Origin: Microcystis aeruginosa NIES-4325
GTDB lineage: Bacteria > Cyanobacteriota > Cyanobacteriia > Cyanobacteriales > Microcystaceae
Direction of reading: 5' to 3'
DNA length: 64,000 nt
NCBI RefSeq assembly: GCF_008974145.1
Contig: NZ_BJKP01000003.1
Location: 70,976-134,975, forward strand
The translations under genes and the position numbers were made by a program. Numbering within the stretch: position 1 is the first letter of the stretch; each line of letters starts with the position of its first letter. This document shows, piece by piece, positions 11,817 to 29,762 of the stretch. The notes under the pieces were generated by a model. It was not told where the DNA came from and did not search any database. It saw nothing but the letters and a program-made list of their open reading frames with translations.

Positions 11817-12053
11817 TGCGTAACCAGTAAGAAAAATGAAAGATTTAAGGTTTGACCTTTAAAAAATGTAACACAGTTTTCAGGGCTAATTCTCGCTCCG
11901 GTCAGGTTTCTCCACCAGTGGGGATCGATTGGCGATCGCTGGGACGAAAAACCGCTAACTTCCTAAAATTTACCTTAAAATGTCTCCTAGACTACAAAAA
12001 ATCAGGCCAATTGTCCGACACTGGGAATAGGTAAGGTATGCAATGAGGTCAGT

Positions 12054-13490
12054 GTGCTATTAAATACCTACGATCCCGAAGGCTTCTACGACGAACTATT
12101 CTTAGATGATGGTCAACCTCGTCCCCACGCATCCCCTTTAATCAAATGGTTGCAGAATCTGCCCCCCCGAGAACTTCAACAACACCGGGAAACGGCTCAG
12201 TCGGCCCTGTTTGAATTGGGGGTGACTTTCAATGTCTATAGCGACAATCAAGGGGTAGAAAAAATCTTTCCTTTTGATATTATTCCCCGAATTGTCGCGG
12301 CTGAGGACTGGGATTATTTAGAAAGGGGACTGAAACAACGCATCAAAGCTCTCAATCTTTTTCTCTCGGATATCTACAATGACCAGTTAATCATTAAAGA
12401 TGGCATTATTCCCCCCGAATTAATCGCCTCGGCGACGGGATTTCTGAAACCCTGTCTGGGACTGAAACCCGCCGGAGGTATCTGGTGTCACATCACGGGA
12501 ACCGATTTAGTCCGCGATAAGGATGGTCAATGGTACGTTTTAGAGGATAATTTGCGGGTTCCTTCCGGTATTTCTTATGTTCTCGAAAATCGTCGGGTAA
12601 TGAAAAGCACCTTCCCCGATATTTTCCAGACAATGAATGTTAAACCGGTGGATGATTATCCTTCCCATCTGTTGGAAACTCTCCTTAATTTAGCACCGCC
12701 CCAATTGCCTAATCCCACAGTGGTGGTTTTAACCCCCGGAACCTATAATTCTGCCTACTTTGAACATTCTTTTATCGCCCAACAAATGGGGGTAGAATTA
12801 GTGGAAGGGCGTGATTTAGTCGTCTTTGATGGTTATCTACAAATGAAAACCACCAAGGGATTAAGGCGAGTAGATGTGGTCTATCGTCGCCTCGATGATG
12901 ACTTTTTAGATCCAGCAGTTTTTCGTCCCGATTCGATGTTAGGTGTACCCGGATTATTAAAAGTTTTCCAGGAAGGCCGCGTCGCTTTGGCTAATGCCCC
13001 TGGTACGGGAGTCGCCGATGATAAGGTGATTTATGCTTTTGTCCCCGATATGATTCGTTATTATCTGGGAGAAGAAGCGATTTTAAATAACGTTCCTACC
13101 TATCTTTGTTGGCGAGAAAAGGACTTAGATTATGTCTTAAATAATCTCGATAAATTAGTTGTGAAAGCTGCCAATGAATCGGGAGGTTATGGGATGTTAG
13201 TCGGTTCTCAATCTACCTCGAAAGAACGAGAAGAATTCGCCTCACGTATTGCTGCTAATCCCCGCAATTATATCGCTCAACCGGTGTTAAGTCTTTCTCG
13301 GGTTCCGACTTTAATTGACAGGGAAATTGAAGGTCGTCATGTGGATTTACGTCCCTATATTCTCCATCGGGGCGATGAAATTTATGTTCATCCTGGTGGT
13401 TTAACTCGCGTAGCTTTGAAAAAGGGTTCTTTAGTGGTTAATTCTTCTCAAGGTGGTGGCAGTAAAGACACTTGGGTTTTAACCAAGTAA
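12054..13490 (+). CDS. Circularly permuted ATP-grasp type 2 protein (DUF404/DUF407 type)
   Basis: A 478-residue member of the COG2308 ATP-grasp family of predicted amide-bond-forming ligases. Family stretches seen: GFYDELFLDDGQPRPHA at the start, PFDIIPRIV, WYVLEDNLRVPSGISYVLENR, VYRRLDDDFLDP and LVVKAANESGGYGML, with the ligase basic and acidic residues in place. The start is GTG at 12054 with GAGG five bases upstream; nearby ATGs are out of frame. The alpha-E gene follows after 114 bp and then a transglutaminase, a set described (Iyer and colleagues, 2009) as a predicted peptide ligation and cleavage system. The substrate is not known. Confidence 0.9.
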   Translation: MLLNTYDPEGFYDELFLDDGQPRPHASPLIKWLQNLPPRELQQHRETAQSALFELGVTFNVYSDNQGVEKIFPFDIIPRIVAAEDWDYLERGLKQRIKALNLFLSDIYNDQLIIKDGIIPPELIASATGFLKPCLGLKPAGGIWCHITGTDLVRDKDGQWYVLEDNLRVPSGISYVLENRRVMKSTFPDIFQTMNVKPVDDYPSHLLETLLNLAPPQLPNPTVVVLTPGTYNSAYFEHSFIAQQMGVELVEGRDLVVFDGYLQMKTTKGLRRVDVVYRRLDDDFLDPAVFRPDSMLGVPGLLKVFQEGRVALANAPGTGVADDKVIYAFVPDMIRYYLGEEAILNNVPTYLCWREKDLDYVLNNLDKLVVKAANESGGYGMLVGSQSTSKEREEFASRIAANPRNYIAQPVLSLSRVPTLIDREIEGRHVDLRPYILHRGDEIYVHPGGLTRVALKKGSLVVNSSQGGGSKDTWVLTK

Positions 13491-13604
13491 TCAGGACAAT
13501 AATCGAAATTTTGCTGGGTTACGGCGAAAATTAAATTATCAGTCAACTGCATAAATTATTGTCGCCTAACCCAACCTACCCTTTTCACTTTTTCCTCGTT
13601 AATT

Positions 13605-14606
13605 ATGCTTAGTAGAGTTGCCGATTCAATTTATTGGTTAAATCGCTATATTGAACGGGCAGAAAATGTCGCCCGGTTTATGGATGTTAACCTTAATTTA
13701 ATGTTGGATATTCCCACCAGCGTTTTGCAACAGTGGGAACCTTTGGTTTTAACCACGGGAGATTTAGAACAATTCAAGGAACGTTACGGCACAGCCACCG
13801 CAGAAAATGTGATCAATTTCTTGACATTTGACACGGAATATAGTAGTTCGATTATCTCTTGTTTGCGCTGGGCCCGAGAAAATGCTCGGTCAGTTCGCGA
13901 GATTATTTCTTCGGAAATGTGGGAACAGGTTAATGGTTTTTTCTTGATGGTAAAAGATGCTTCCTCTTACCATCCTCAAACTACTTTACCTAACTTTTTT
14001 ACTCAAGTTAAATTGGCTAGTCACCGTTTTGCGGGGGTGATGGATGCGACGATGACTCATAATGAAGGTTGGCATTTTGGCGTTATGGGAAGATTACAGG
14101 AACGCGCCGATAAAACCGCCAGAATTCTTGATGTTAAATACTATTATCTCTTGCCTTCCGCCCAATGGGTAGGAACTTCTCTAGACCAAATTCAATGGAT
14201 TGCTTTACTGCGGTCGGTGAGTGCCTACGAAATGTATCGTAAATGTCAACGAAGGATTACTCCTAGTGACGTGGCCGAATTTTTAATTCTTAATCGAGAG
14301 TTTCCTCGTTCAATTCACTTTTGTCTGCGGGAATTAGACCACTGTTTGCATCAAGTTACTGGGACTCCTATAGGAACTTGGGGGAATTCCGTAGAAAGAA
14401 GTTTAGGGAGACTTTGTGCAGAAATGAGTTATCTAACTATCGAGGATATTATTGAAATGGGATTACATGAATTCCTCGACCATATTCAAAAAAGAGTTAA
14501 TGATGTGGGAATAAAAATGACGGAAACTTTCTTTGTTTTTAATCCCGAACTTGCCCCACCTCTGCCAGTAAATAACTTTCAATATCAATCCCAATTAACA
14601 ACTTAA
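13605..14606 (+). CDS. Alpha-E domain protein (DUF403)
   Basis: A 333-residue all-alpha protein that begins with the family hallmark MLSRVADSIYWLNRYIERAEN and carries SCLRWARENARSVRE and TPSDVAEFLILN. It belongs to COG2307, the alpha-E proteins nearly always coded beside COG2308 ATP-grasp ligases. Its biochemical role is not established. The stop codon shares a base with the ATG of the transglutaminase gene (TAATG at 14604-14608), so translation of the two is probably coupled. Confidence 0.9.
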   Translation: MLSRVADSIYWLNRYIERAENVARFMDVNLNLMLDIPTSVLQQWEPLVLTTGDLEQFKERYGTATAENVINFLTFDTEYSSSIISCLRWARENARSVREIISSEMWEQVNGFFLMVKDASSYHPQTTLPNFFTQVKLASHRFAGVMDATMTHNEGWHFGVMGRLQERADKTARILDVKYYYLLPSAQWVGTSLDQIQWIALLRSVSAYEMYRKCQRRITPSDVAEFLILNREFPRSIHFCLRELDHCLHQVTGTPIGTWGNSVERSLGRLCAEMSYLTIEDIIEMGLHEFLDHIQKRVNDVGIKMTETFFVFNPELAPPLPVNNFQYQSQLTT

Positions 14607-15472
14607 TGCGTTATCACATTCGGCATCAAACTAACTATTTCTATAATCAACCCGTGATTTTATCGCCCCATCTGCTGCGCTTGCGACCAAAATCCGATGG
14701 TGGGCAAACTTTGCGAGAGTTTACCCTCAAAATTAACCCAGAACCTTTAACAATAACTAATATTATCGACCTCGATGGTAATTCTTGTTTACAAATTTGG
14801 TTTAATCAACCGACGGAAGAATTATTGATTGATGTGGTGAGTGAAGTGGAAACCCATGGGATTAATCCTTTTCAGTATTTGTTGGAACCTTGGGCGACCT
14901 GTTTGCCCTTTGATTATCCCATTTCTCTCCACAGTCAATTACAACCCTACAGACAATTTTATGGGTTAAATAATGACCCTGATATGACAGCATTAGCCCA
15001 GGAAGTTATGCAAGAAACCGAGGGACAGGTGCTATCTTTCTTGTTTAATCTTAATGACAAAATTTACCGCAATTGTCAGCAAATTATTCGTCTTACTGGA
15101 GAACCCTATCTACCCGGAAACACTTGGAAAAATAAGCAGGGTTCCTGTCGCGATTTTGTGGTTTTATTTATGGATGTGTGTCGCTGTGTGGGATTAGCTT
15201 CCCGTTTTGTCAGTGGCTATCAAGAAGGAGATTTAGACCAAGGAGAAAGACATTTACACGCTTGGGTAGAGGTGTATTTGCCGGGGGGCGGCTGGAAAGG
15301 TTATGATCCTACCCATGGATTAGCGGTGAGTGACCGTCATATAAGCCTCGTTTCTAGTCCAATTCCCCTTTATTGCGCGCCGGTAGAGGGAAATGCTCGA
15401 CCGGTTAATCTCGGTCATCAAGTGATAGAATCTCAGCTATCATCGACAATTTCCATCGATTTGTTATCTTGA
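14606..15472 (+). CDS. Transglutaminase-like cysteine protein with N-terminal beta domain
   Basis: A 288-residue protein. Residues 1-80 are the bacterial transglutaminase-like N-terminal domain (MRYHIRHQTNYFYNQPV). The papain-like catalytic triad can be read as C181 (NKQGSCRDF), H218 (RHLHAWVEV) and D234 (GYDPTHG). Such proteins act as peptidases or amidases rather than true cross-linkers. It is the last gene of the ATP-grasp/alpha-E/transglutaminase set. No signal peptide is seen, so it should act in the cytoplasm with its partners. Confidence 0.9.
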   Translation: MRYHIRHQTNYFYNQPVILSPHLLRLRPKSDGGQTLREFTLKINPEPLTITNIIDLDGNSCLQIWFNQPTEELLIDVVSEVETHGINPFQYLLEPWATCLPFDYPISLHSQLQPYRQFYGLNNDPDMTALAQEVMQETEGQVLSFLFNLNDKIYRNCQQIIRLTGEPYLPGNTWKNKQGSCRDFVVLFMDVCRCVGLASRFVSGYQEGDLDQGERHLHAWVEVYLPGGGWKGYDPTHGLAVSDRHISLVSSPIPLYCAPVEGNARPVNLGHQVIESQLSSTISIDLLS

Positions 15473-18163: not shown

Positions 18164-19507
18164 TTAAGCTTCTCCTGTGATTGATAAACCCTCTACCCAA
18201 ACGTAGGGACAAACACCACTGGGAGTAATAACTGCTTCCGGTTCCAGATAAACAATCGATTTCAGCAGTGTTAAAATATCCCCAGCTACGGTAGCGGAAT
18301 CGATGCTAATGCGCTCATTTTTGTTAACTAACCAACCGTCAAAGGGCAAAGAGAAGGAACCTTGTAGAGAATTAACTCCCGCGTGAAGTGCCTGTAAACT
18401 ATCAATTAAAACCACATTTTCTGCTGTTTCCAAAGAATAGCTCTTTGGTTGATTAGCACTAGCAAAAACGTGATAAAAATGGGGACTAACCGTTACTTTT
18501 GCGCCAATGTTACCGTTACCAGTCGGTTCTGTATTCATCCGTTTAGCGGTAATCGTGCTATGAAGAAAATTACTCAAAATACCCTCTTTAATTAATTCCA
18601 CACGACGGGTGGGAGTGCCTTCACTATCAAAAGTTTCTGCGGAAATATTAGCCGGATGGAGAGCATCATCGCACAAATTTAAGGCAGTAGCGGCGATTTG
18701 TGTTCCCAAAGATTCAGGAGTAGAAAGACTCTGTTTATCAAGGACATTTTGGGCATTAAACAGATTAGAAAATGCTCCCATTAGACTCAAAAAGGCGCGG
18801 GGGGCAAAAACCACTAAATATTTACCCGTGGTAATCGGTTGATAGTCCAGATGGCTAACAGTTTTGCTAATCGCTTCCTCGATGCAACCATCGATATCTA
18901 ATTTTTCCAAGCCCGGACTCACCCGAAAAGCACCGGCGCTGCGGGGTTTTTTGCCTTCCTGTTCGGTTTTGGTGTATAAATACACGCTGGCATAACTACG
19001 CGCTTCCTGACGCATTGCCCCGTCGCTATTGAGATAAAAACGTCTGACCTGCTGTTGTCCCAAACCGTTATAGGGAACACTGGCAATAGCTGGATGGGCT
19101 GATAGTAAGGATTTTTCGGCGGCCAATAACTTATCGATAAGAGTGGACACAGGTGCTTGATTAGACATTTCGCTGGCCACTTCTGTGGTAGGTGCGGTGG
19201 CAGCGGGACTAAAATCGGGGACATTTTCCTTAACCCCAAAAAAGCTGGCTTCTTGGGCGGTTTTCAGGGCTAATTGCAGTCCCACCGGGTCCACATCGGT
19301 GGTCGAGGTGACACCGACTTGATTATCCTGATTCCAGACGCGAACGATAACGCTGGAACGATTGGAAGCTTGTACCTGTTTGGGTTCCCCTTGAAACACA
19401 TCCACATCGGTTTCATCCACAGAGGAACCATAGATGTCGTATTTAGCAATTCCTAAAGCTTGGGCGCTAGAATTAGCGATTTGGGCGATATCTTCGACTT
19501 TTGGCAT
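18164..19507 (-). CDS. pmbA: PmbA/TldE-type subunit of the TldD/TldE protease
   Basis: A TldD/PmbA-family protein of about 447 residues from the start MPKVEDIAQIA at 19507. It lacks the HExxxH zinc motif of TldD, as TldE does, and has family stretches such as SVDETDVDVFQGEPKQV and NGNIGAKVTVSPHFYHVF. With TldD it should form the heterodimeric metalloprotease that trims unfolded or modified peptides (microcin B17 and CcdA in E. coli). The frame continues upstream to 19606, but that part is translated GGGTGATA-type tandem repeats and is not accepted as coding. It is third in the set tldD, DUF456, pmbA. Confidence 0.9.
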   Translation of the reverse strand: MPKVEDIAQIANSSAQALGIAKYDIYGSSVDETDVDVFQGEPKQVQASNRSSVIVRVWNQDNQVGVTSTTDVDPVGLQLALKTAQEASFFGVKENVPDFSPAATAPTTEVASEMSNQAPVSTLIDKLLAAEKSLLSAHPAIASVPYNGLGQQQVRRFYLNSDGAMRQEARSYASVYLYTKTEQEGKKPRSAGAFRVSPGLEKLDIDGCIEEAISKTVSHLDYQPITTGKYLVVFAPRAFLSLMGAFSNLFNAQNVLDKQSLSTPESLGTQIAATALNLCDDALHPANISAETFDSEGTPTRRVELIKEGILSNFLHSTITAKRMNTEPTGNGNIGAKVTVSPHFYHVFASANQPKSYSLETAENVVLIDSLQALHAGVNSLQGSFSLPFDGWLVNKNERISIDSATVAGDILTLLKSIVYLEPEAVITPSGVCPYVWVEGLSITGEA

Positions 19508-19529
19508 AGATTTTTTTTGGTGTTGGAGG

Positions 19530-19585
19530 ATAGGTGATAGGGGGATAGGGTGATAGGGTGATAGGGAAGTGGGGGAATGGGGAAA
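19530..19585. repeat. Short tandem repeats (GGGTGATA-like)
   Basis: Units close to GGGTGATA repeat three to four times, with degenerate G-rich copies on either side, in the gap between DUF456 and pmbA. This is one of several short tandem tracts between genes in this window. Confidence 0.6.
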
Positions 19586-19616
19586 TTTCAAATAAAATCC
19601 CAACATTCAACATCTT

Positions 19617-20162
19617 CTAACTGATAACTGAAGAGAGATGCGGCCAGGTGGTGACAATAAAGACAATAACGGCAGCCGTGGCCAGCATAGCTTTGGCAAC
19701 GTGGCCGATAACCGTACCGACGACAATACCAACACAGACTTTTAGGGATTGTTGCAAACGGGGAGTTAATTCCAAATCGCGACGATAGGCGTATTCTCCC
19801 AAAAAAGCCCCCACCACAGGACCGACAAATAAGCCGATAATCGGGCCGCCAATAGGTAAAGCCGGTAAAAGCCCGAATATTCCCGCTAATAAACCCACTA
19901 CTAGCCCGATTTGACTCCAATTGCTCGCCCCAACTTTTTGGGCACCGAGATAACTAGCGAGGAATTCCACCCCCAGACTGAGGAGAAGGACAACAAAGGC
20001 CACGGTTAAAGCGACCCCCATCCCCGCGAATTTGGTGACGAAACCCCACACCAGCATGGCGATTAAAATCAAACTCATGCCGGGGATAGCGGGTAGCAGT
20101 TCGCCAATTATCCCCACTATCATGATGGCAATGAGGAAATAGTAGAGAATCACTAAAGCCAT
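19617..20162 (-). CDS. DUF456 family membrane protein
   Basis: A 181-residue integral membrane protein with about four to five hydrophobic segments and Gly-rich hairpins (MIVGIIGELLPAIPGMSLI; IGPLF-like stretches GGPIIGLFVGPVVGAFLGEY; FIVTTWPHL at the end). DUF456 proteins are small bacterial membrane proteins of unknown role. It starts 2 bp after the stop of tldD, so they are probably translated together. The pairing with tldD and pmbA could mean the protein helps the peptide-processing pair at the membrane, but that is only inference. Confidence 0.88.
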   Translation of the reverse strand: MALVILYYFLIAIMIVGIIGELLPAIPGMSLILIAMLVWGFVTKFAGMGVALTVAFVVLLLSLGVEFLASYLGAQKVGASNWSQIGLVVGLLAGIFGLLPALPIGGPIIGLFVGPVVGAFLGEYAYRRDLELTPRLQQSLKVCVGIVVGTVIGHVAKAMLATAAVIVFIVTTWPHLSSVIS

Positions 20163-20164
20163 GA

Positions 20165-21634
20165 TTAACGACCGCCAACGGTAATAGAATCGACTTTTAA
20201 ATGGGGTTGACCAACGGTGACATAAACGCTACCACTGACGGAACCGCAAAAACCGGCCGCTAGACCTAAATCTTGGGAACACATGGAGATTTTATTCATA
20301 ATCTCCTTGGCTGAACCGATTAAAGTTGCGCCTTTCAGGGGTTTAGTCAGGTTGCCGTTTTCGATAAGATAAGCTTCCTCGACAGCGAAATTAAATTCAC
20401 CGGTCGCCCCCACACTACCACCGCCCATTTTTTTGCAATAAATGCCTTTATCGATGGAATTAAAGAGATTATCGAGGGTATATTCACCGGGAGCGATGTA
20501 GGTATTCCGCATCCGACTAGCGGCCGCATAGGTGTAGTTTTGACGGCGACCGCTACCTGTGCGGGGATGGCCGGTTTTAATTGAACCAGTGCGATCGGCA
20601 ATGAAGTTTTTTAGGATACCATTTTCAATGAGGAGAGTACGCTGGGCCGGCATTCCCTCATCGTCCATATCGATAGTACCGAAAGCTTTATCGGATAATC
20701 CTTCGTCCCAAGCCGTCAGGTTTTCGTGGGCGATTTTTTCGCCTTTTTGATCGAGAAAGGGCGTGGTTTTTTGCTCAATTTGCGTAGTTTCTAGCAAATG
20801 GCCGCAGGCTTCGTGGAAGATAACGCCGCCAAATTCATTGGCCATGACGATGGGATAACTGCCGGATTCTACATAGTCAGCGTAAAGCTTTTTCCCCGCC
20901 GATTCGGCCACTTCTGCCGCTGATTCCTCGGCATTCCACGTCCGCAGAAAATCGGGATTACTGGTATTACCCACCCGTTTACCAATGCTAGAACGATTAG
21001 TCCCATCGGCACAGAGGAGATTATAGCCCACGGATTGGGTGAGGCGAATATCCCGGGCAAAAGTGCCGTCACTAGCGGCAACTAAAATTTCTTGCCAATC
21101 GCGAAAATAAGCGGCGCGACGAGATTGGACGTGAGAGGCTTTCTGATTGAGTTGAACGTTAGCAGCTAGGAGAATATCACCCATTTCTCGCAAAGAACTG
21201 CAATTATTCAGCCAAATATCTTTATTTTTGACCGTGGCATAATCCCGGAACATTTCCAGATTGATTTCGGGAATATACGCGTTAGGACTGGGTAGGTTTA
21301 AACCGAGAATCGATAAACCTTTTTCTAGGGCATTTTTTAAGCCTTGGAAGCTTAAATCGTTGGTACTGACATAACAATCGGCTTTCCCGCGAAAAAGGCG
21401 GATTCCTGCCCCTGTAGATAGTTTCGGTGAGAGACTGGTGATGCTGTCATCTTCGGCTAAACAACTGATATAGTTGACTCTTTCGAGGAAAAATTCGATA
21501 AAAGTCGCCCCGGCAGCCCGTCCCAGTCCCAGAAGAGTGGACAAAGGGGCCGCCCAAGAGCTATCAAAGCGCTCCAGACTAGGATTATATTTCAGGGTGG
21601 GGAGTTCTTTGGAGATGAGTAGGGTGGGTGACAT
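20165..21634 (-). CDS. tldD: TldD metalloprotease subunit
   Basis: A 489-residue TldD-family protein with the zinc motif HEACGH at residues 274-279 ([14 protein letters not shown]). TldD is the catalytic subunit of the TldD/TldE peptidase, which degrades or trims flexible peptides threaded into a closed chamber. Other family parts: [20 protein letters not shown] and [14 protein letters not shown]. It is the first gene of the minus-strand set tldD-DUF456-pmbA. Cyanobacteria make many ribosomal peptides, so peptide maturation is a possible job, without direct evidence here. Confidence 0.93.
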
Positions 21635-28994: not shown

Positions 28995-29762
28995 TTAATC
29001 TATTATGATATCTTCTTTGGGATCTTCATCGGTATAATGCCATTCCACATTGGGCATAGCCTCGAAAGCTTGCCGGACGTAATCCTCCCAGAGTTTCCGC
29101 ATTTTAGCTAGGTAGGGATCTCCTAGTCGCAATTGTAACTTATGACGTAGGCTTAGGCTATTAGCTTCATACATACTCAAATAGATAGGTGGACCAACGG
29201 AAATATTCGATTTCATGGTCGAATCGATGGAAAGTAAGGCACATTTTGCCATTTCCTCTAGGGGTGTATCATAGGTAATAGTGCGATCGAGAATCGGTTT
29301 ACCGTATTTAGTTTCACCTATCTGTAAAAAGGGCGTTTCTTTGGTGGCTTGAATATGATTTCCCTGGGGATAAATCAGGAATAATTGCTGGTCTTCTCCT
29401 TTAATTTGTCCCCCAAGAATAAAGTTACATTGGAAATCAATACTATCTTTTTCTAGCCAAGTTCTTTCCCTAGCTTGTACTTGACGACTTTTATCACCGA
29501 TATAGTGGGCAATATCGTAGAGATGATTCAGAGAATGGAGATTTTTATCCTCTTGATTGTGCAGATCTCTTTTTAGTTCGTGAATCACTCCTTGGCTAAT
29601 CGATAAATTCCCCGATGTGCAGACCATAATTACTCTTTCTCCCGACACCGAAAAGTCAAATAATTTCCGATAGGCCGAGATATAATCGACTCCCGCATTC
29701 GTGCGAGAATCCGCCCCCATAACAATGCCAAAACGATTGATAATTCCTAAACAGTAAGTCAT
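28995..29762 (-). CDS. Anbu: proteasome-type NTN peptidase
   Basis: A 255-residue protein of the Anbu (COG3484) class, bacterial relatives of proteasome beta subunits. After removal of Met1 the N-terminal nucleophile Thr1 would be exposed (MTYCLGIINRFGIVMGADSR), with Asp17 and Lys32 of the catalytic set in GADSRTNAGVDYISAYRKL. In bacteria Anbu is typically coded with COG2308 ATP-grasp, alpha-E and transglutaminase genes; here those lie at 12054-15472, about 13.5 kb away. The cellular substrate is not known. The peptide repeats flanking it (29773-29875) are intergenic heptamers. Confidence 0.9.
   Translation of the reverse strand: MTYCLGIINRFGIVMGADSRTNAGVDYISAYRKLFDFSVSGERVIMVCTSGNLSISQGVIHELKRDLHNQEDKNLHSLNHLYDIAHYIGDKSRQVQARERTWLEKDSIDFQCNFILGGQIKGEDQQLFLIYPQGNHIQATKETPFLQIGETKYGKPILDRTITYDTPLEEMAKCALLSIDSTMKSNISVGPPIYLSMYEANSLSLRHKLQLRLGDPYLAKMRKLWEDYVRQAFEAMPNVEWHYTDEDPKEDIIID

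Follow-up and report, generated by a model that had tools for sequence, protein, structure and literature searches.

The stretch of DNA analysed here (the window) comprises 64,000 nucleotides of Microcystis aeruginosa NIES-4325 and holds three neighbouring genes for a circularly permuted ATP-grasp ligase, an alpha-E protein and a transglutaminase-like protein, hereafter the ligase set, together with a more distant gene for Anbu, a proteasome-like N-terminal nucleophile (Ntn) hydrolase (Table 1). An operon of these four genes is described in PMC5666114 and PMC6376114 (citing Iyer et al. 2009 and Valas and Bourne 2008); both papers cite Iyer et al. 2009 for the idea of peptide synthesis or tagging, and both place Anbu in cyanobacteria. 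The gene set itself, whose enzymes are predicted to ligate and cleave peptides, is not new; it represents the known Anbu operon in its cyanobacterial version. Three features go beyond the published operon, namely the dependence of Anbu on the ligase set, NtcA-type boxes on the ligase operon, and an apparently undescribed protein of about 180 residues, here named QMZ, which looks like a fifth component of the system.

Table 1. Features of the Anbu system in the window and, for QMZ, on another contig of the same genome
Feature	Position	Strand	Remarks
Degenerate NtcA-box-like sequence TGTCTCCTAGACTACA (GTCN8TAC)	11981-11996	+	Conserved position, 5' of ATP-grasp
ATP-grasp ligase, circularly permuted (COG2308-type; CP_ATPgrasp_2)	12054-13490	+	GTG start, 478 aa; Pfam E 1.9e-171
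Alpha-E protein	13605-14606	+	333 aa; Pfam Alpha-E E 1.2e-106
Transglutaminase-like protein, C181/H218/D234	14606-15472	+	288 aa; Bact_transglu_N 2.2e-24, Transglut_core 2.2e-16
Anbu, proteasome-like Ntn hydrolase, Thr1/Asp17/Lys32	28995-29762	-	Pfam Proteasome E 3.9e-6; PDB Anbu matches
QMZ of the window genome	G000:C58:1628-2137 (L165)		Other contig, outside the window

The open reading frames (ORFs) of the ATP-grasp and alpha-E genes are 114 bp apart, those of the alpha-E and transglutaminase genes overlap by one base, and the three genes are contiguous and co-directional, as in the ligase part of the four-gene operon. A sequence-only reading of the window had listed these genes in a row, with a Cys-His-Asp triad in the third and Anbu about 13.5 kb away on the other strand; the ORFs and Pfam agree with the row, the triad residues are as it gave them, and the distance from the transglutaminase gene to Anbu measures 13,522 bp. 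At this distance and on opposite strands, Anbu does not share an operon with the set. Residues 12-476 of the ATP-grasp protein match PDB 3n6x (E 7e-173), a near-full-length relative, and no solved relative of alpha-E was found in a PDB sequence search with E up to 1. C181, H218 and D234 of the transglutaminase align with the Cys, His and Asp of 6g49 and 3isr, which places the triad of the superfamily in this protein. Among 43 relatives searched with loose patterns, the Cys motif was present in 42, DPT in 32 and a narrow His pattern in 12, counts that do not establish conservation of the triad in all relatives. The Anbu of the window has five PDB matches at E<=0.001 (5loy, 5nyw, 5lox, 5nyj and 5nyf), three named Anbu and two Peptidase, with 5loy the best (E 4.4e-78). 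It retains, after removal of Met, Thr1, Asp17 and Lys32, the active-site residues (Lys32(33) included) as named in PMC6376114. None of the four proteins of the window had an NCBIfam match at E<=0.001. Within the 3.88 Mb assembly, a genome search returned one match each for ATP-grasp, alpha-E and Anbu; the genome of the laboratory strain Synechococcus elongatus, used as a control, also matched ATP-grasp and alpha-E.

Elsewhere, a second, lower-scoring copy of the circularly permuted ATP-grasp gene occurs in two genomes (L087, G070:C15; L088, G189:C1:144578). Three deep-branching genomes (G016, G044 and G053; L092, L093 and L094) carry alpha-E in frames of 655-1044 codons that also hold a transglutaminase-like match, which suggests, at the level of the predicted frames, a fusion of the two proteins. 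At another locus (L053, G172:C3:12090-12665) the full transglutaminase gene is immediately preceded by two partial matches to the N-terminus of the transglutaminase.

Co-occurrence and arrangement of Anbu and the ligase set

The four genes tend to be kept or lost jointly in the cyanobacteria examined, even when they are scattered. Two samples were used, a first of 194 genomes drawn across the phylum and a second of 291 class-level genomes, searched for alpha-E and Anbu at E<=1e-20, with about 60 genomes shared between them. In the first sample alpha-E was present in 46 genomes and Anbu in 35. ATP-grasp matches at E<=0.001 occurred in 57 genomes; 46 were strong and fell in exactly the alpha-E genomes, the other 11 being weak (E 7e-9 or worse). 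The transglutaminase, a member of a broad superfamily, matched in 88 genomes at the same threshold, and only the 45 genomes with strong matches were used, of which G131 and G175 are without alpha-E. Alpha-E was carried by 34 of the 35 Anbu genomes, and among the 148 genomes lacking alpha-E only one (G175) has Anbu. In the second sample, 174 genomes had both, 33 alpha-E only, five Anbu only (G175, G254, G355, G364 and G384) and 79 neither. Anbu and the set therefore did not vary independently, with Anbu standing without alpha-E in 1/35 and 5/179 of the Anbu genomes of the two samples. The proposal of the sequence-only reading that the four genes form one system agrees with this co-occurrence, and with the 12 genomes of the first sample that keep both alpha-E and Anbu more than 40 kb apart on one contig.

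More informative than Fisher tests on these counts, close relatives differ in the presence of the system as a whole. Within genus g5 of family f1, G143 has all of the genes and G147 and G183 have none; the same contrast separates G129 and G157 from G039 and G099 in family f6, and G060 from G185 in family f20. These contrasts were chosen after the tables were known, and G039 and G185 retain only marginal transglutaminase matches. The system genes of G143 and G129 are spread over hundreds of kilobases to megabases, so that joint loss in their relatives need not have been a single deletion. Divergent Anbu-like matches occur in one f23 genus, three in G175 (L083, L084 and L085; 39-43% identity) and two in G394; G175 has no alpha-E or strong ATP-grasp match, yet carries transglutaminase-like matches beside one of its Anbu copies. 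A broken Anbu gene in G133 was rejected, as the apparent interruption is a stretch of N in the assembled sequence.

Alpha-E and Anbu lay on one contig in 20 genomes of the first sample, and in the eight where they were closer than 40 kb, the ligase operon ran towards an opposite-strand Anbu in six (the window genome G000, G172, G027, G036, G058 and G083). In the remaining two (G060 and G170) Anbu lies upstream of the ligase operon on the same strand. At seven loci picked for nearby QMZ, and so not a random sample (G207, G217, G227, G262, G289, G240 and G221), Anbu is convergent with gaps ranging from overlap to less than 200 bp, and all five genes stand in a single cluster. The sequence-only reading had also noted that Anbu is coded on the other strand; this is not odd, as close cyanobacterial clusters among those examined more often have Anbu convergent with the ligase operon. 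The seven loci whose Anbu is 97-98% identical to that of the window are all from Microcystis. Because co-occurrence and adjacency hold in relatives, the set of the window was classed as a dispersed variant of the Anbu system, and its arrangement is best read as the usual convergent cyanobacterial cluster stretched by insertions, its genes having drifted apart from adjacent positions. Two reverse-strand ORFs (18164-21634) that separate the set from Anbu were read by eye as a TldD/TldE peptidase pair. Neither this pair nor the M48 peptidase, TPR and TauE genes near Anbu in the window fell into clusters reaching three families near Anbu.

QMZ, a candidate fifth component

Three parts make up QMZ, namely an N-terminal domain some 85 residues long, a linker rich in Met and Pro, and a zinc ribbon of the form CxxCG...CxxCG. 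Across 44 sequences, QQQ is present in all 44 and GQQQ in 40, with Gln34, Gln35 and the four Cys columns invariant. Pfam matches were to zinc-ribbon families, with stray single-member matches to Amelogenin (3e-5) and beta-flower (0.0035). For the N-terminal domain, Pfam returned nothing below E 0.01 and the PDB nothing below 0.8, and by these searches the domain appears to be new. The protein emerged from annotation-independent, all-against-all clustering of the ORFs around Anbu and alpha-E, performed on 79 loci including the window, then on 99 and then on 119. In the unselected first pass QMZ lay within about 170 bp of Anbu in five genomes from four families, and near alpha-E in four genomes from three families. 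One more cluster reached three families near Anbu, at scattered distances. After QMZ loci had been fetched, QMZ was found less than 700 bp from the ATP-grasp or Anbu gene in 23 genomes from ten families, on either side and in several orientations. In the 119-locus clustering it reached 19 families and 44 genomes, against at most five families for every other non-core cluster, a family count that is inflated, QMZ itself having been the basis for choosing 38 of the 40 loci added.

Across genomes QMZ follows the ligase set. In the first sample full-length QMZ is present in 24 of the 194 genomes, and 23 of these carry the set. The remaining one, G131, combines its full-length QMZ with a truncated transglutaminase on another contig, beside ORFs read as transposon genes (L171, 9695-10000, and L161, 9581-10078, for these G131 features), and looks like a case of loss of the system. 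In the second sample, a first search that scored at most 11 candidates per genome gave QMZ at E<=1e-6 in 118 of the 291 genomes, 114 of which have alpha-E. Among the 104 QMZ genomes new in this sample, 102 carry alpha-E or Anbu, and at least 30 have QMZ no more than 4 kb from alpha-E or 12 kb from Anbu; eight of those 30 belong to one genus with a spacing of 8.6-8.8 kb, leaving 22. All 12 genomes of the genus of the window have both QMZ and alpha-E. QMZ is absent from about half of the set-bearing genomes, and is therefore a facultative partner that cannot be the universal substrate. Explaining the absences as a search artefact was disfavoured by a second search with the N-terminal domain alone in 80 genomes (63 with the set and Anbu and without QMZ, 17 others), which returned only short or weak pieces, in 6 of the 80; most of the absences look real. 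Within these bounds QMZ is the best candidate for a substrate or adaptor of the system.

Several observations concern QMZ genes placed elsewhere. In three Microcystis genomes QMZ follows an acsF-like gene (read by eye) by about 160 bp, and in two f2 genomes it stands 195 bp from the same acsF-like family in the opposite orientation (L165, L160, L162, L158 and L170 for these cases). At L159 (G157:C58) a second transglutaminase-like match (146945-147766), contained in an open frame of 1111 codons, has QMZ directly 5' of it and in the same orientation. Four partial matches on viral contigs, confined to the Met-rich and zinc-ribbon region, were not used, and a scan of viral contigs for alpha-E relatives found none.

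NtcA-type boxes at the ligase operon

In Burkholderia cenocepacia H111, genes of the DUF404/407, DUF403 and transglutaminase families (I35_5080-5083) depend on NtrC/sigma-54 (PMC5491218), and for this reason the cyanobacterial genes were searched for the box of the nitrogen regulator NtcA, taken as GTAN8TAC following PMC3898017. Among the 41 genomes whose ATP-grasp start could be anchored by a residue pattern, the box was present within 450 bp 5' of the conserved start region in 28 (12 of 18 families), compared with 61 of 1190 other genes at the same loci. Of 40 held-out loci, 30 were usable and 27 had the box; in 21 of the 30 it fell between -200 and -60, where 300 mononucleotide shuffles gave a mean of 1.1 and a maximum of 5. 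Canonical NtcA-activated promoters have a -10 element, TAN3T, some 22 nt past the box. Here the strict element was found at an offset of 21-25 in only 4 of 28, and a hexamer loosely resembling it starts at offset 22 in 7/28 and at 23 in 11/28. The box is rare at the other genes, being present at 5/43 Anbu, 2/59 alpha-E and 2/43 transglutaminase genes and at 0/26 QMZ genes away from ATP-grasp, which assigns the predicted nitrogen control to the ligase operon.

The copy in the window is degenerate and scores 10.7, compared with 13.3-19.9 for the sites of relatives, and 7 of 200 shuffles score as well. It is situated at -102 from the conserved FYDE anchor, with 19 of the 28 sites of relatives lying between -98 and -109, and it keeps GTN10AC, which is highly conserved over a wider set of sites from chromatin immunoprecipitation (ChIP) in PMC3898017. 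The same degenerate site is present in G097 and a similar one in G133, and it is absent from G095. An earlier computational prediction of NtcA sites exists and is cited in PMC3898017. Among the papers listed in literature searches none linked NtcA to Anbu or the ligase set; PMC9284123, which came up for NtcA and transglutaminase together, concerns another gene.

Interpretation and comparison with known systems

The explanation we prefer, and hold to be somewhat better than an even bet, is that the genes of the window are a cyanobacterial Anbu system, dispersed in Microcystis and working with a QMZ encoded on another contig. The functional association of the genes and its link to nitrogen are held with good confidence. 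The cyanobacterial form shares with the published four-gene operon the same four families, the contiguity and order of the ligase genes, the active-site residues of Anbu and the genomic association. In the cyanobacteria sampled it differs in that Anbu is usually convergent or distant and is missing from many genomes that retain the set, roughly half of the genomes with the set also have QMZ, and NtcA-type boxes occur. The Burkholderia cenocepacia H111 cluster is similar in that a global regulator of nitrogen governs genes of the same three families (ligase, alpha-E and transglutaminase), but that regulator is NtrC and not NtcA, the cluster has a second, large transglutaminase-domain protein, and PMC5491218 does not mention Anbu. 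RloABC / RimBK systems likewise combine ATP-grasp, transglutaminase-like and peptidase genes in one operon; their ATP-grasp is RimK-related, the transglutaminase is an inactive membrane protein and the peptidase is aspartic, with neither alpha-E nor Anbu mentioned in PMC12239564.

Several points weigh against this interpretation. All of the counts given here, and the Fisher values derived from those of co-occurrence, ignore shared ancestry, and the Fisher values are not to be taken as probabilities. In the first clustering pass a kinase-like cluster (by eye) also reached four families near Anbu, at 151-8164 bp. QMZ is missing from 23/46 and 93/207 alpha-E genomes of the two samples, and four of the 118 QMZ genomes are without detected alpha-E: G279 (where only the zinc ribbon matches), G347 (a genome 88% complete), and the Anbu-bearing G364 and G384. 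Exact GTAN8TAC sequences in the window number 10 against 8.8 expected by chance, with none near the set, where the only copy is the degenerate one. Dispersed ATP-grasp genes lack the box in 9 of 10 cases (L239-L248), and with the dispersed G129, which has it, 2 of 11 carry it; nitrogen control may thus tend to be lost when the operon breaks up. G214, which is not dispersed, also lacks the box. Experimentally, PMC6376114 reports no peptidase activity of Anbu and no specific interaction with its operon partners, and for the Yersinia ATP-grasp protein only phosphate release from ATP; PMC5666114 favours plain protein degradation as the role of Anbu, and a 2021 paper (PMC8665760) still gives Anbu no function, though structures had been solved. 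On a separate point, set-bearing genomes without an Anbu match number 12/46 in the first sample (eight of family f23, three deep-branching and G105) and 33/207 in the second (27 from f23). As an obligatory step, which the sequence-only reading had implied with its ligation followed by cleavage, Anbu is not sustained by these genomes, nor by the NtcA boxes, which mark the ligase operon and not Anbu. Anbu looks dispensable and downstream of the set, and is placed there because Anbu depends on the set and not the reverse.

The strongest alternative, a possibility that we rate well below the preferred explanation, is that the product of the set is a small peptide metabolite, possibly one connected with nitrogen or stress, with Anbu as a salvage peptidase and QMZ as a regulator or metal sensor and not a substrate. 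Family f23 fits it, as the set persists without Anbu in 27 of the 28 set-bearing f23 genomes of the second sample, NtcA-type boxes are kept in 6 of 8 held-out f23 loci, and QMZ was not found in the seven f23 genomes of the N-terminal-domain search; the predicted zinc ribbon and Met-rich linker of QMZ fit a sensor. Yet QMZ is found beside ligase genes as well as beside the peptidase gene and hardly occurs outside set genomes, and no gene for biosynthesis or transport keeps a fixed position among the neighbours. The nearest to one, an ABC-ATPase-like cluster (by eye) in five families and 13 genomes, lies 56 bp to 7.4 kb from differing system genes (11 places). An improbable alternative is that Anbu is an independent general protease of nitrogen-starved cells, its nearness to the set being inherited linkage with no functional coupling; the case for protein degradation made in PMC5666114 and the scarcity of the ligase-operon NtcA box at Anbu would suit it, but Anbu almost always accompanies the set even at hundreds of kilobases to megabases. 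That the three genes and Anbu are merely incidental neighbours, as the 13.5 kb, the opposite strands and the many intervening ORFs of the window might suggest, along with G095 of the same genus (about 52 kb, same strand), is very improbable given the adjacent convergent arrangement in several other families and the co-occurrence across the class.

Within the preferred cyanobacterial Anbu system, an order of catalytic steps can be proposed, though only tentatively. Under nitrogen shortage, the ATP-grasp protein would activate a carboxylate with ATP and, with alpha-E, make an amide bond; the transglutaminase would act on a glutamine, plausibly in the invariant Gln pair of QMZ where QMZ exists; and Anbu, where present, would hydrolyse or remove the product.

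In the Pup-proteasome tagging of actinobacteria, which has a link to nitrogen starvation, an ATP-dependent carboxylate-amine ligase acts together with a proteasome-type peptidase and a small protein in which a Gln is functional. The cyanobacterial system would resemble it in ligase, proteasome-type peptidase, small Gln protein and nitrogen starvation, with tagging here only a candidate activity. The Pup ligase has a glutamine-synthetase-like fold and not an ATP-grasp fold, the Gln cluster of QMZ is internal, and no unfoldase was found among the recurrent neighbours. A more specific and rather unlikely extension is that QMZ is a protein tag or tethered adaptor, which the transglutaminase, ATP-grasp and alpha-E of nitrogen-starved cyanobacteria would attach, by way of the invariant Gln pair, to itself or to other proteins. 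The Met/Pro linker and zinc ribbon would then pass the conjugate on for release or degradation by Anbu, in an independently evolved Pup-like route.

No product of the Anbu operon was found reported in the literature consulted. The analysis suggests that the system serves under nitrogen limitation, signalled by NtcA, that Anbu depends on the set and not the set on Anbu, and that QMZ, with its invariant Gln motif, is a specific partner. Should QMZ prove to be the substrate, the target of the Anbu system could be addressed directly in vitro. In bloom-forming Microcystis the system is kept as a unit despite its scattered genes.

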